Assembly: GCF_025399795.1 (NCBI RefSeq)
Contig: NZ_JAODTZ010000005.1
Span: 62,001 to 126,000 of the forward strand
DNA from: Streptomyces rhizosphaerihabitans
GTDB lineage: Bacteria; Actinomycetota; Actinomycetes; Streptomycetales; Streptomycetaceae
Direction: 5' to 3'
Length of the DNA: 64,000 bases
This document shows positions 28,277 to 54,480 of this stretch, one piece after another; position 1 is the stretch's first letter, and every line of letters begins with the position of its first letter. The translations under genes and the position numbers were made by a program. The notes under the pieces were generated by a model. That model was given only the letters and a program-made list of their open reading frames with translations. It was not told where the DNA came from and did no database searches.

Positions 28277-28615
28277 TCAGGCTGCGGCCGTCGGGCCAGC
28301 CGTTCCTGCGGCGCGCCGGTACTCGGCATTGATCCGCTGCGCTTCCTCGAGCTGGTCCTCAAGGATGACGATGCGGCAGGCAGCGTCAATGGGTGTGCCG
28401 TGGTCGACGAGTTCGCGGGCGCGGGCGGCGATGCGCAGCTGGTAGCGGGAGTAGCGGCGGTGTCCGCCCGCGGAGCGGAGCGGGGTGATCAGGCGGGCTT
28501 CGCCGATCGCGCGGAGGAAGCCCTGCGTGGTGCCGAGGAGTTCGGCGGCCCGGCCCATCGTGTAGGCAGGGTAGTCATCGTCGTCGATCCGGTCGAACGA
28601 GTCGTCTGCTGTCAT
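28277..28615 (-). CDS. MerR-like HTH regulator
   Basis: 112 residues. Acidic start MTADDSFDRIDDDDYPAY, then a MerR-type winged helix TMGRAAELLGTTQGFLRAIG, LITPLRSAGGHRRYSRYQLR, and a short C-terminal helix LEDQLEEAQRINAEYRRA. No effector-binding domain. Good SD GAGAGGTGCA before the ATG. A deleted paralogue survives at 32236-32400, near cspA. A long repeat-rich region lies upstream. Confidence 0.82.
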   Translation of the reverse strand: MTADDSFDRIDDDDYPAYTMGRAAELLGTTQGFLRAIGEARLITPLRSAGGHRRYSRYQLRIAARARELVDHGTPIDAACRIVILEDQLEEAQRINAEYRRAAGTAGPTAAA

Positions 28616-31089: not shown

Positions 31090-31293
31090 TCAGGCCGGGT
31101 TGATGTTCTCGGCCTGCGGGCCCTTCTGGCCCTGGGTGACATCGAACGTCACGATCTGGCCCTCCTGCAGCTCACGAAAGCCCGCGGAGTTGATCGCGGA
31201 GTAGTGCGCGAAGACGTCCGGACCGCCCCCGTCCTGGGCAATGAAGCCGAAGCCCTTCTCCGCGTTGAACCACTTCACAGTTCCCGTAGCCAT
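31090..31293 (-). CDS. cspA: Cold-shock protein CspA family
   Basis: 67 residues with RNP motifs: [18 protein letters not shown] (RNP1 KGFGFI), DVFAHYSAI (RNP2) and [16 protein letters not shown] single-stranded nucleic-acid-binding OB fold and RNA chaperone. GGAAGG lies eight bases before the ATG. The leader carries a terminator-like hairpin about 85 nt upstream of the start. Standard length. Confidence 0.96.
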
Positions 31294-41640: not shown

Positions 41641-41845
41641 CGGGCTCGCCGGTCCTGCATGCCCGGTCGACCTGCTGCAACGGAGGAAAGAAGCCGACCG
41701 AACCCGCGGGATATTGCACATCCCAGTAGCGGCCGGGCCCGGCCCCCGATGTGTCCACGACCGATATCGTTCGCCGAGCACGAGAACAGGGCATCGACTT
41801 GGCCTCCGACACCGTCGGGCACCGGGATCGTGCAGCCGACCTTAG

Positions 41846-41875
41846 CGGCCGCTGGGCGAAGCCCCCCAGCGGCCG
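41846..41875. terminator. Hairpin terminator after cofilin-like gene
   Basis: Perfect 11-bp stem CGGCCGCTGGG / CCCAGCGGCCG with an 8-nt loop, 35 bp beyond the cofilin-like stop codon. Confidence 0.65.
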
Positions 41876-41909
41876 GCCACCACTGCGGACACCCGACGGT
41901 GTTACCAGG

Positions 41910-42323
41910 TCAGTTCCCGCTGTTCGCCTTGTCGAGGACCGCCTCGTAGGCGACCTCGCTGTACTCGGCCCCCTGGATCTCGAATGCGACACCCGCGAGC
42001 GAGCGCACGAGCCCGTTATTGGAGGCGCCGAAGAACATCTTCTGGCTGGCCTGGGCCGCGTGCGGTGCCCACCAGACGAAGGCGAGCTTCCGCTTCCCGG
42101 CGCCCTCCTTCTCGAACTCGAAGTCGTAGACGGCCCAGCGGCACTCCGTCTCTGGAAGGTCCGCGATGAAGTCTTCGTAGTCCGTGGAGCTGGAAACCTT
42201 CTCGACGACGATCTCCGTGTTGTCCTTGCCGAGATTGAAGAGGACGTACTTGTGCTTCTTGCCGTCCCTCAGGTCGTGGTATGCCCGCAGGCACGCTGAG
42301 CTGACTCTGGCACCCGTCGTCAT
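41910..42323 (-). CDS. ADF/cofilin-family protein
   Basis: 137 residues, the normal cofilin length, with the family pattern throughout: GARVSSACLRAYHDLRDGKK and KYVLFNLGKDNTEIVVEK; then YEDFIADLPETECRWAVYDF and EFEKEGAGKRKLAFVWWAP; then KMFFGASNNGLVRSLAGV (the long actin-binding helix region, about 94-112) and EIQGAEYSEVAYEAVLDKA. The similarity to fungal and plant cofilins is evident line by line. The usual KM.YASSKDALRRAL helix reads KMFFGASNNGLVRSL here, so two acidic/basic contacts differ. ATG 42323 has GGAG six bases upstream. Cofilins sever and depolymerise actin filaments in eukaryotes. No actin-like gene is visible nearby. Origin by horizontal transfer is inferred. Confidence 0.9.
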   Translation of the reverse strand: MTTGARVSSACLRAYHDLRDGKKHKYVLFNLGKDNTEIVVEKVSSSTDYEDFIADLPETECRWAVYDFEFEKEGAGKRKLAFVWWAPHAAQASQKMFFGASNNGLVRSLAGVAFEIQGAEYSEVAYEAVLDKANSGN

Positions 42324-42711
42324 GGCGTTCTCCATTTACGTAGTCGCATTGAGTAAGCAAATGGTAACTGTCCGTCAGGCGATGGTGCCCGTGGATCGAA
42401 GCCCATAGGTCCAACTTCGATGCCGGGCAGTTTTCACTTCGGTGTCGGCAGAAGGGTAGGAGAGGCCCGCAGCCTGCCCGCTCCGCGATCTTGCTCATCT
42501 ATCGACCGATTGCTGAGCAAGATCGGTAAGTGGCGGCGCGCGACCGGATCGACGCCGGATCATGCCCATAAAACGGTGTCAGAAAGTCGATGTGCCCAAG
42601 AAGTTGAGGAGCACCCTTTTCTGTACGATCTGGCAGGTGCAGCCACCCCAGGACGACGACGCCGCTGATCTCCTCGCCCCCGTTCCGGCCGTAGTGCGAG
42701 TAAGAACCCTG
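42324..42711. other. Non-coding region upstream of cofilin-like gene
   Basis: No convincing gene. The first about 60 bp are AT-rich (TTTGCTTACTCAATGCGACT on the minus strand) and should hold the cofilin promoter; no strong -35/-10 pair found. Confidence 0.4.
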
Positions 42712-43596: not shown

Positions 43597-43815
43597 TCAA
43601 TCCACAATGCCGCAATCGACGATGCTGATCGTCGCCTTGGTCTTCCCCGATGGGCTTCCCAACCTCTCAATCTTCGTCACGAGGTCCATGCCCTCGACCA
43701 CCTCGCCGAACACGACGTGTGCGCCGTCCAGCCAGGAGGTCACCACGGTCGTGATGAAGAACTGCGAGCCGTTGCTGTTCTTGCCCTTGTTGGCCATGTT
43801 GAGCCCCGTGTAGTT
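43597..43815 (-). pseudogene. Eukaryotic-type cyclophilin, C-terminal fragment
   Basis: About 66 residues after an internal Met: [40 protein letters not shown] and [20 protein letters not shown] ending DCGIVD. This is the second half of a CypA-like peptidyl-prolyl isomerase. The [18 protein letters not shown] and WLDGxHVVFG motifs belong to the eukaryotic-type branch. The first about 100 residues, including the catalytic Arg-Phe strand, are missing. The break is near 43815, next to another truncated gene. Confidence 0.85.
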
Positions 43816-44883: not shown

Positions 44884-45745
44884 ATAAGAGGTCATCTCAT
44901 TTGGCTTGTTCGATAGTCTGTGGGTGTGGGGATCGTTGAGCGGCTGGTGCCGGATGAGTTGTGGGAGTTGTTCCAGCGGGTGGTGCCGGAGGCACCGAGC
45001 CGGCCTCAGGGCGGTGGTCGGCGGCGGCACGGTGACCGGGAGGTGCTGGCTGCGATCGTGTTCGTGGCCACGTCGGGCTGCACGTGGCAGCAGCTTCCGT
45101 CCGCCTCGTTCGGGCCTTCGGGAGCCACTGCTCACCGGCGTTTCACGGAGTGGTCCAAGGCCCGGGTGTGGGCGAAGCTCAATCGCCTGGTCCTTGACGA
45201 GCTCGGCTCCCACGGGGAACTGGACTGGTCCCACCGCGTGATCGACTCGGTGAACATGCGAGCCCTGAAAAAGGGGATCTGACAGGTCCGAATCCTGTGG
45301 ATCGCGGTAAGTACGGGTCGAAGATCCATTCGATCACCGAGCGGACCGGACTTCCTCTGGCAGTCGGCATCTCGGGTGCGAACATGCATGACAGCCAGGG
45401 TCTGGAGCCGCTCGTGCGGGGCATCCCGCCGATCCGCTCACTGCCGCGGTCCGCGCCGCCGCAGGCCCGGCAAGCTGCACGGCGATAAGGGCTACGACTA
45501 CCGCCACCTGCGGCAATGGCTCCGCAGTCGGGGCATCACGCATCGCCTGGCCCGGCGCGGCATCGAGTCCTCCACCCATCTGGGCCGTCACCGCTGGGTC
45601 GTGGAGCGGTCCGTCGCCTGGCTCGCCGGCTGCCGCAGACTCCACCGCCGCTACGAACGCAAGGCCGAACACTTCCTCGCCTTCGCCGCCATCGCCTGCA
45701 CCCTCATCTGCTACCGCCGACTCACCAAATGAGATGACTTCTTAT
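44884..45745 (+). mobile_element. IS5-type insertion sequence
   Basis: 21-bp terminal inverted repeats at 44884-44904 and 45725-45745 with one mismatch (left ATAAGAGGTCATCTCATTTGG). It encloses a transposase gene in three frame blocks. The right end lies inside the 3' end of a toxin-like gene. Size 862 bp is typical of small IS5-group elements. Confidence 0.8.
44920..45732 (+). pseudogene. IS5-family transposase with frame breaks
   Basis: First block: IVERLVPDELWELFQRVVPE, EVLAAIVFVATSGCTWQQLP and LDWSHRVIDSVNMRALKKGI, then TGA. The next continues DRGKYGSKIHSITERTGLPL and ANMHDSQGLEPLV. After a shift near 45450 it resumes KLHGDKGYDYRHLRQWLRSR, RRGIESSTHLGRHRWVVERS and FAAIACTLICYRRL. A natural -1 shift between two ORFs is known in this group, but here one junction has a stop and the other a second shift, so it is probably inactive. 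Confidence 0.75.
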
Positions 45746-52698: not shown

Positions 52699-54480
52699 AT
52701 GCCGAAGCCGCAGATGCAGGAGACGGCCCTGGCCGCGCCCCGCGCGGCCTCGGTGAACGGACCGGAGGACGACGCACTCGACTGGCACGACATCGACTGG
52801 GGCCAGACCGAGGAAAACGTACGGCGCTTGAGGCAGAGGATCTTCAAGGCGACGCAGGAAGAGGACTGGAAGAAGGTCCGCAACCTGCAGAAGCTCATGC
52901 TGCGAAGCCGAAGCAACACGCTGGTCAGCGTGCGGCGGGTGACGCAGCAGAGCCGTGGTCGCAAGACTGCCGGCATCGACGGGGAGCGAGCCCTCACCCC
53001 AGCGGAGAGAGGCAAGCTGGCGACCGAGATCCACCGGTCGTCCACGCCCTGGAAGGCCAGGCCGGTCAAGCGAGTGTTCATCCCCAAGAGCAATGGGAAA
53101 CAACGACCGCTCGGTATCCCGGTCATCCGCGACCGGGTCCTTCAGGCCCGGGTGAAGAATGCCCTGGAACCCGAGTGGGAAGCGCGGTTCGAGCCGAAGT
53201 CCTACGGCTTCAGGCCCGGCCGCGGCTGCCACGACGCGATAGCCGCCATCTTCGCTACGGCGAAAGGAAAGGCTGCGAGACGCCTATGGGCGCTCGACGC
53301 AGATCTGGCAGCGGCGTTCGACCGCATCGACCACGAGCACCTGATGTCGTCCATCGGGCAGTTCCCTGCCAGGGAACAGGTCCACGGGTGGCTGAAGGCC
53401 GGAGTGATGGATCGCGGCCGATTCGCGCCAACCGAGGAGGGAACTCCTCAAGGCGGCGTGATCAGCCCTCTGCTGCTGAACATTGCCCTGCACGGATTGG
53501 AACAGGCTGCCGGATGCCGGTACTCGACCGAGAAAGGACGCGAGTCCTGGTCGATGCCGGACTCTCCGGTCCTGATCCGCTACGCCGACGACTTCGTCGT
53601 GCTCTGTCACGACGAAGACCAAGCGGACCTGGTCAGGACGCGGCTGGACGAATGGCTCAGGCCCCGGGGCCTTCGCTTCAATGAGGCGAAGACCCGAGTC
53701 GTGCACCTCCAGGAGGGGTTCGACTTCCTGGGCTTCACCGTGCGTCGCTTCGGGGAGAAGCTGCTCATCAAACCCAGCAAGGCAGCCGTCCTGAGGTTCC
53801 GGGAGCGGTTACGGACGGAGATGGGGTCCCTGCAAGGGGATAACGCCGAGGCCGTACTGCGCAGGGTCGTCCCCCTCGTGCGAGGGTGGGCGGCCTACTA
53901 CCGGACAGTGGTGTCCACGGAGACCTTCGCGTCTCTCGACCACTACATGTGGCACCTCACCTTCAAGTGGGGAAGGCGACGCCACCCGAGGAAGTCGCGG
54001 TCATGGGTTAAGACCCGTTACTTCGACAAGTTCAACCCCTCCAGGAACGACAGTTGGGTGTTCGGCGACCGGAACACCGGCGCCTTTCTCCCCAAGCTGG
54101 CCTGGACGGGCATCGTCCGACACCGGATGGTCAAAGGGACGGCATCCCCGGATGATCCGTCCCTGATCGACTACTGGCGCACCCGCCGCCGAACGAAGGC
54201 GCCGCCGCCGATGGACAAGATCAGTCTCCATCTGGCGGCACGGCAGAGAGGACTTTGCCCCCTCTGCAAGCAGGCGCTGATCGCCGGGGCCGAATACGAG
54301 CCGGACAATCTGCGTGAGTGGATGGACTGGTTCGCGGCCACCAGGAAGATGCTCCACAAGCATCACTTCACCTACCGGCGAGACGGCGGCTCGGACGAGC
54401 GAACGAATCTTCGCCTCGTGCACTCCGAATGCCATCGTCAACACTACGCGAACGACGGCAAACGGACCACACCCTGCTGA
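52699..54480 (+). CDS. ltrA: Group II intron reverse transcriptase/maturase with HNH
   Basis: 593 residues. RT: NGKQRPLGIPVIRDRVLQAR, SYGFRPGRGCHDAIAAIF, LDADLAAAFDRIDHEHL, TPQGGVISPLLLNIALHGLE, RYADDFVVLCHDEDQA (YADD). Maturase: FDFLGFTVRRFGEK, LVRGWAAYYRTVVSTETF. C-terminal HNH endonuclease: LCPLCKQALI, LHKHHFTYRRDGGSDERTNL, RLVHSECHRQHY, providing second-strand cleavage for retrohoming. Complete and probably active. A different lineage from the RT at 9113. Confidence 0.95.
   Translation: MPKPQMQETALAAPRAASVNGPEDDALDWHDIDWGQTEENVRRLRQRIFKATQEEDWKKVRNLQKLMLRSRSNTLVSVRRVTQQSRGRKTAGIDGERALTPAERGKLATEIHRSSTPWKARPVKRVFIPKSNGKQRPLGIPVIRDRVLQARVKNALEPEWEARFEPKSYGFRPGRGCHDAIAAIFATAKGKAARRLWALDADLAAAFDRIDHEHLMSSIGQFPAREQVHGWLKAGVMDRGRFAPTEEGTPQGGVISPLLLNIALHGLEQAAGCRYSTEKGRESWSMPDSPVLIRYADDFVVLCHDEDQADLVRTRLDEWLRPRGLRFNEAKTRVVHLQEGFDFLGFTVRRFGEKLLIKPSKAAVLRFRERLRTEMGSLQGDNAEAVLRRVVPLVRGWAAYYRTVVSTETFASLDHYMWHLTFKWGRRRHPRKSRSWVKTRYFDKFNPSRNDSWVFGDRNTGAFLPKLAWTGIVRHRMVKGTASPDDPSLIDYWRTRRRTKAPPPMDKISLHLAARQRGLCPLCKQALIAGAEYEPDNLREWMDWFAATRKMLHKHHFTYRRDGGSDERTNLRLVHSECHRQHYANDGKRTTPC

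Follow-up and report, generated by a model that had tools for sequence, protein, structure and literature searches.

The 64,000-nucleotide stretch of Streptomyces rhizosphaerihabitans DNA analysed here (the window; contig NZ_JAODTZ010000005.1, positions 62,001 to 126,000) carries a real, intact, full-length and single-domain bacterial gene for ADF/cofilin, a protein which is used by fungi, plants and animals to take apart actin filaments and which is regarded as a hallmark of the eukaryotic actin system. We put the chance at about even (roughly 0.5) that this cofilin was captured from an agaric fungus, that its streptomycete family acts on the actin of eukaryotes outside the cell, and that the copy in the window binds this actin weakly, as is predicted. 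Proteins of this kind were noted in 2009 and crystallised in 2017, and the statement of an earlier note on this DNA that ADF/cofilin is rarely if ever reported in Streptomyces is thus not supported. The earliest mention in print that we found is the cofilin/ADF entry in a table of a paper on phagocytosis, 'a homolog only in Streptomyces, probable HGT' (PMC2651865), which likewise ascribes a bacterial ADF/cofilin to transfer from eukaryotes; the relevant passages of that paper give it one line for one protein, without an analysis of donor, family, actin site or structure. The PDB entry 5IVU, 'Crystal Structure of Streptomyces griseoflavus Cofilin' (protein P0248), was released on 2017-03-29, and many streptomycete proteins are named 'actin-binding ADF family' by NCBI. 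A search of the open-access literature found neither a functional study of a Streptomyces cofilin nor a paper containing '5IVU' or both 'Streptomyces griseoflavus' and 'cofilin'. New here are the view of the whole clade, the altered copy in the window and a diverged sister family, which is found near stress-type genes.

The cofilin gene lies on the minus strand, which the earlier note had not given, and its frame of 137 residues has the ends GARVSSACLRAY and EYSEVAYEAVLDK described there; an in-frame alternative ATG at position 42335 would extend the protein to 141 residues (Table 1). The gene also possesses the Shine-Dalgarno sequence and the bacterial codon use that had been ascribed to it, with a GC content by codon position of 0.58/0.41/0.91. 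The claim of an own terminator stands only in part: a strong hairpin is located 36 to 63 bases beyond the stop codon (-30.1 kcal/mol for positions 41840-41880, z -3.4) and makes such a terminator likely; however, it lacks a T run, and a consensus scan at the gene returned neither a standard terminator nor a sigma-70 promoter. That the protein is a full-length ADF/cofilin homolog, as proposed before any profile search, was borne out by Pfam: the ADF-H profile PF00241 matches with 106.3 bits (cut-off 22.4, E-value 1.1e-30) over positions 1-125 of its 125 and residues 15-136 of the 141-residue form. A single ADF-H domain spans the whole protein, and the modelled fold is that of ADF-H. In sequence, the window protein matches cofilins and actophorin most strongly (1e-47 to 1e-30), followed by GMF (about 1e-6) and twinfilin (1.6e-6 and 5.5e-4), and a few apicomplexan cofilins match more weakly than GMF does; in trees built without GMF or twinfilin rows, the window protein is nested among cofilins. 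NCBIfam provided no name for three of the proteins and PADLOC none for the cofilin.

Table 1. Features of the window, in window coordinates.
Feature	Position	Strand	Basis or remark
ADF/cofilin coding sequence, 137 aa + stop	41910..42323	minus	ATG at 42323, stop 41912-41910
Shine-Dalgarno sequence GGAGAA	42328..42333	minus	4 bases before ATG at 42323; sequence
Long helix of the actin-binding G/F-site, residues 92-108, ASQKMFFGASNNGLVRS	42000..42050	minus	helix from model, residue mapping
Upstream element CCTGACGGACAGTTACCAT...CAATGCGACTA, predicted promoter or operator	42341..42379	minus	common to upstream regions of 3 cofilin genes
Hairpin 3' of the cofilin stop, predicted terminator without T run	41847..41874	minus	
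C-terminal fragment of a cyclophilin-type peptidyl-prolyl isomerase	43597-43797	minus	profile 93-158 only
IS4/5-family transposase, split over two frames	44920-45732	plus	
Group II intron reverse transcriptase/maturase with HNH domain	52699-54480	plus	
MerR-like and cold-shock-like genes (by eye)	28277-28615, 31090-31278	minus	87.5% and 95% identical to the G298 pair

A search with the window protein yielded 227 homologs. Among the 120 listed, 20 come from organisms named as Streptomyces, Embleya or Kitasatospora (one of these names is truncated to 'unclassifie') and share 57-70% identity with it, and most of the other named ones are basidiomycete cofilins of 53-63% identity. In partly overlapping draws of genomes, PF00241 was detected in 17 of 392 genomes of the genus, in 13 of 297 of the family, in three of 70 of one sister genus and, among 396 genomes from 236 genera of the phylum, in this genome only, which contains two cofilin copies: the one in the window and a diverged one on contig C63, which is 22% identical to it. 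Some copies seem to be decaying, as the matches in L049 (G611) and L010 (G077) are truncated to 59 and 83 profile positions, respectively.

The main streptomycete family, to which the window protein belongs (clade I), groups with basidiomycete cofilins. In a tree of 69 rows with plants as the root, the window's row forms one group (92/91) with 21 clade I rows and five unnamed rows, which lies inside the basidiomycetes and apart from ascomycetes, amoeba and plants. In a tree with 40 basidiomycetes and 17 of the 22 clade I rows (P0017, P0024, P0030, P0043 and P0086 are omitted), 15 of the 17 streptomycete rows, including the window's, form one clade (99/99), which lies inside an agaric group (95/83, 95/84); the other two, 5IVU and one MAG, fall in the wider agaric group, and a tree in which all 17 are forced together beats the free tree by 4.2 log units. 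When the diverged family is added (51 rows), only eight of the 12 clade I rows stay in one group with that of the window (83/89), the remaining four being scattered among or beside basidiomycetes; a single clade is not rejected there (p 0.299). The 137 residues carry little phylogenetic signal, and none of the rival placements is rejected by AU tests, which give p 0.193 and 0.231 for a position of the streptomycetes outside the sampled basidiomycetes and p 0.349 for one outside the sampled fungi. The nearest named eukaryotic kin of the window protein in the trees are cofilins of Agaricales (Termitomyces, Lyophyllum, Hypholoma and Pholiota), which have the same length and 61-63% identity, compared with 39-49% for the ascomycete rows, 43% for actophorin and 29-32% for the plant rows; the branch of the window protein itself is long (0.32-0.5 in three trees). 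It is therefore likely that the main clade goes back to one old transfer from an agaric (mushroom-type) fungus into a streptomycete ancestor; the donor was likely an agaricomycete, whose mushroom family is not nameable from these data. Both the fungal affinity and the domestication since transfer that the earlier note had proposed agree with this tree, in which the protein appears as long established among streptomycete proteins. A recent transfer into this strain was rejected, since the window protein sits inside the streptomycete clade (99/99), and nesting among bacterial sequences is what the note itself had named as speaking against it. Four further streptomycete ADF-H proteins, L040 (G602), L041 (G403), L042 (G518) and L046 (G540), are found on long branches outside both main groups and are possibly separate transfers.

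The actin-binding surface was compared at 11 positions in yeast numbering, five of which (K105, D106, R109, R110 and E134) we take to be part of the actin site. The other six, R80, K82, R96, K98, R135 and R138, are described as essential for actin binding of yeast cofilin in the relevant part of PMC3541276. Compared with yeast cofilin (1COF/1CFY), the window protein is changed at five of the 11 positions, among them the essential R96 and R138, which are both replaced by S, as well as K105 (N), D106 (N) and R109 (V), whereas R80, K82, K98 and R110 are retained and position 135 is a K, so that four of the six essential positions are basic (R, K, K and K). Actin binding by the window copy is therefore doubtful. 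The helix KMFFGASNNGLVRSL indeed departs from the usual KMxYASSKDALRR, as had been pointed out; however, this departure concerns this copy and a few relatives rather than the bacterial clade, since 18 of the 21 counted clade I proteins retain almost all of the standard residues and thus have a nearly intact actin surface. In 5IVU, none of the 11 positions differs from the basidiomycete consensus, compared to five in the window copy. The counts comprise 20 named clade I proteins and L003, and leave out P0009/L039 (nearly P0006), the metagenome proteins, L004 and the long-branch proteins L040, L041, L042 and L046. Among the 18 site-keeping relatives, all six essential positions are basic in 16, and cells that differ chemically from the basidiomycete consensus amount to 6 of 198 at the site compared to 398 of 2286 elsewhere, a figure that is conditional, as the three altered proteins were set aside because they are altered. 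Basidiomycete cofilins, including those of Agaricales, keep the site likewise (25 proteins; 1 of 275 cells at the site compared to 429 of 3175 elsewhere). Counted by columns, the contrast is borderline for the 18 proteins (3 of 11 site columns vary compared to 77 of 127, p 0.052) and gone when all 21 are included (8 of 11 compared to 83 of 127). In addition to the window copy, L003/P0043, P0053 and the outlying L004 (four of 11 positions chemically different) are altered at the actin site; in L003/P0043 and P0053, largely other residues are affected, or the same ones are changed to other letters, which suggests that the site probably changed more than once.

A 39-base element upstream of the window gene is shared with the cofilin genes L003, in a second genome of the genus, and L039, in Embleya. 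The observed local-alignment scores of the three pairs were reached in 2, 0 and 0 of 3000 shuffles; the element is visible by local alignment, whereas an anchored ungapped comparison gives 0.33 and 0.31 against a null mean of 0.32, because the window's upstream region is shifted by two bases. The occurrence of the element in two genera shows that the gene and its control region were passed on as a unit among streptomycetes, be it by descent or by transfer. No second exact copy of the element was found in the own genome. A regulon sharing it was considered and rejected, as the one further site in this genome (one mismatch) equals the number obtained with the reversed control.

Fungi have actin, and MreB shares the actin fold. 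In the genome of S. rhizosphaerihabitans, two PF00022 pieces in one frame belong to MreB (517.6 bits for MreB_Mbl compared to 48.8 for Actin), which is the sole actin-family frame found there; a co-transferred actin was thus rejected. Actin-family pieces were found in all 18 cofilin-bearing genomes searched; in the other 17, no single piece exceeds 45.5 bits and no joined pieces exceed 51.3 bits, and the strongest single piece is an MreB/Mbl protein. Frames were typed in two genomes, one in each, and both are MreB/Mbl. Profilin was found in none of 12 genomes, a result of little weight, as the control genomes were equally silent. Since this genome has MreB and no eukaryote-type actin was found in it, the cofilin probably targets either actin from other organisms or a novel partner. 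In this respect, the system differs from ActM and PfnM of Microcystis, which are likewise proteins of the eukaryotic actin system that moved into a bacterium: according to the relevant passages of PMC3254629, actin and its binding protein came together there, whereas only the actin-binding protein was found here. A bacterial clade with a nearly intact actin surface, for which only MreB-type relatives of actin were identified, raises the question of whose actin is the target. If it is eukaryotic, Streptomyces holds a class of actin-directed effectors taken from its fungal rivals; if it is not, the ADF-H fold has acquired a partner within bacteria.

In the mechanism that we propose, a fungal cofilin gene would have been captured by the ancestor of these streptomycetes, and the clade would have been kept for binding eukaryotic actin in the usual cofilin mode. 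The N terminus and the long helix would enter the cleft between actin subdomains 1 and 3, while the loop and the C-terminal helix would contact the filament; binding across this cleft would presumably lead to severing of filaments or capture of monomers, so that the filaments of surrounding organisms would be disassembled or disturbed. Selection for binding of eukaryotic actin is inferred for the relatives, although their retained surface could equally serve MreB; for the window copy, weak binding or a shifted target is predicted. No signal peptide was recognised by eye on the window protein, and its exit by lysis or through a contractile injection machine of the genome is a guess. Contractile sheath genes are present in the own genome, on contigs other than that of the cofilin (C29 and C2), and in eight of nine cofilin genomes tested. 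As far as the relevant parts of PMC8505568 go, contractile particles affect competition or contact with fungi in S. lividans, and sheath genes are widely conserved in Streptomyces. Given this conservation and their location on other contigs, the sheath genes discriminate little, and no link between them and the cofilin gene was found.

The diverged 'cofilin family proteins' of streptomycetes (clade II) share PF00241 with the window copy, but form a separate branch in which the actin-site residues are largely changed. The own-genome member (G000:C63:16304-16663) scores 55.6 bits and thus exceeds the cut-off, and identity between clade II and the window copy amounts to 18-28%. When 11 diverged streptomycete cofilins were used for a profile search, 305 proteins were recovered at E <= 1e-3, other cofilins perhaps among them; all organisms named for the 120 matches listed are Streptomyces, and plasmids of S. 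avidinii and S. goshikiensis are annotated with clade II proteins as well. In 22 clade II rows, K105, R110 and R138 are never kept; R96 is basic in seven, K98 in ten (K in two) and K82 in seven, R80 is retained in 16, and position 109 holds R or K in 21. When every diverged row is included, the tree carries long-branch warnings and clade II is not placeable in it; one origin of both clades is not rejected (p 0.194). The surroundings of clade II were studied at 15 loci of 17-20 kb each from 14 genomes and compared with 20 control stretches, which were hand-picked from ten of these genomes and are unmatched for distance to the chromosome end. STAS genes are near or fused to the cofilin at seven loci (six and one fusion) compared to one of the controls (Fisher p 0.011). 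For SpoIIE (7/15 compared to 4/20) and HATPase (6/15 compared to 4/20), there is no clear enrichment, and PRC, CBS, sigma-B-like genes and two housekeeping controls differ little or not at all between the loci and the control stretches. Asp23, GlsB, LigD, BrkB and CBM48-like genes, labelled by eye, occur at three to five of the 15 loci and in none of the controls, a biased contrast, as these seeds were picked because they recur at the case loci. A 264-aa frame on the minus strand (L018, G161), which is also found in L038, fuses a STAS domain of the anti-sigma-antagonist type (52.5 bits) to a diverged ADF-H domain (32.4 bits). Loss of much of the actin site, together with the frequent proximity to stress-type and STAS genes and the one fusion to STAS, suggests a bacterial re-use of the ADF-H fold.

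This leads to a different reading, in which the ADF-H fold is being repurposed, or already is so, to serve a bacterial partner other than actin. The window copy with its changed helix would be under way to such a role, which clade II would have fully reached, likely in stress signalling. This reading fits the five changed site positions and the long branch of the window copy, the size and conservation of clade II with its loss of K105, R110 and R138, and the association with STAS, including the fused frame. However, clade II keeps some of the basic residues (R80 and R/K109), is only distantly related to the window copy and not placeable in the tree, and its STAS association was measured against hand-picked controls, compared to which SpoIIE, HATPase, PRC and sigma-B-like genes were not clearly enriched. 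Moreover, no stress-type island like those of the clade II loci surrounds the window gene, even though a SpoIIE/HATPase protein is encoded 4.3 kb away. Overall, we regard this reading as unlikely. It is tempting to combine both readings into two re-uses, namely a captured fungal cofilin which disables the actin of eukaryotic competitors or grazers and, through loss of the actin surface, a new bacterial signalling class of ADF-H proteins tied to STAS and stress-sigma switching, with the window copy in between, a tentative and still less probable scheme. The series from an intact site (5IVU) via an altered one (window) to one largely free of actin-site residues (clade II) would in any case allow a cytoskeletal protein to be followed while it changes its job.

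That the window protein regulates an actin homolog of its own cell, either MreB/Mbl or a plasmid-borne ParM-like filament, appears rather improbable. MreB is present and has the actin fold, and the relatives keep a basic surface of the actin type; however, actin-family pieces occur in every cofilin genome searched, yet cofilin in only 17 of 392 sampled genomes of the genus, so that cofilin is no standard partner of MreB, and MreB and cofilin are located on different contigs here (C56 and C5). The gene could also be passing cargo of a decaying mobile region without present function, since its neighbours include the two-frame transposase, the cyclophilin fragment and the group II intron protein, its branch is fast and its active surface changed. 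Gene order is not conserved either: a comparison of the whole window with stretches of G298 (68.5 kb), G420 (Embleya; 60.4 kb) and G250 (20 kb) revealed, besides cofilin, the MerR-like/cold-shock pair and two matches of mobile-element or membrane type in common with G298, and a transposase pair (by eye), 27 kb away in the window, in common with G250; no further gene was shared with G420. Such cargo is nevertheless highly improbable in view of the intact frame, the GC content of 0.91 at third codon positions, the Shine-Dalgarno sequence and the upstream element kept across two genera. The dN/dS ratios calculated with YN00 (0.25 for window-L003 and 0.16 for L003-L039) point in the same direction, although values of 0.96, 0.54 and 0.58 are obtained for three pairs with NG86, a method that takes no account of codon bias, so that selection is not firmly shown for the window copy. 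Phage and plasmid cargo were rejected: tblastn returned no phage record and one plasmid record (28.5% identity), and none of 70 pattern-matched viral stretches encodes a relative. The chance that the gene is contaminating or chimeric eukaryotic DNA is negligible, as it lies firmly within a bacterial replicon, on a contig of 285,776 bases in an assembly with a completeness of 99.99 and a contamination of 0.09, and has bacterial codon use, an uninterrupted frame and its best relatives in named streptomycete records.

Some further observations concern the gene neighbourhoods. In G298, the MerR-like/cold-shock pair lies 8 kb from the cofilin gene, in a relative orientation that differs from that in the window. 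A small gene resembling CBM48/AMPK glycogen-binding domains by eye is found near the diverged cofilin at five of the 15 clade II loci (L032-L036) and in none of the 20 controls; in L033 and L036, it is located directly upstream of the cofilin on the same strand, and Pfam gave no match for two of these genes. In the own genome, the clade II cofilin of L021 (C63:6501-26000) lies at about 9.8-10.3 kb of this locus, about 7 kb from a STAS gene and about 4-5 kb from the gas vesicle genes GvpA and GvpG.
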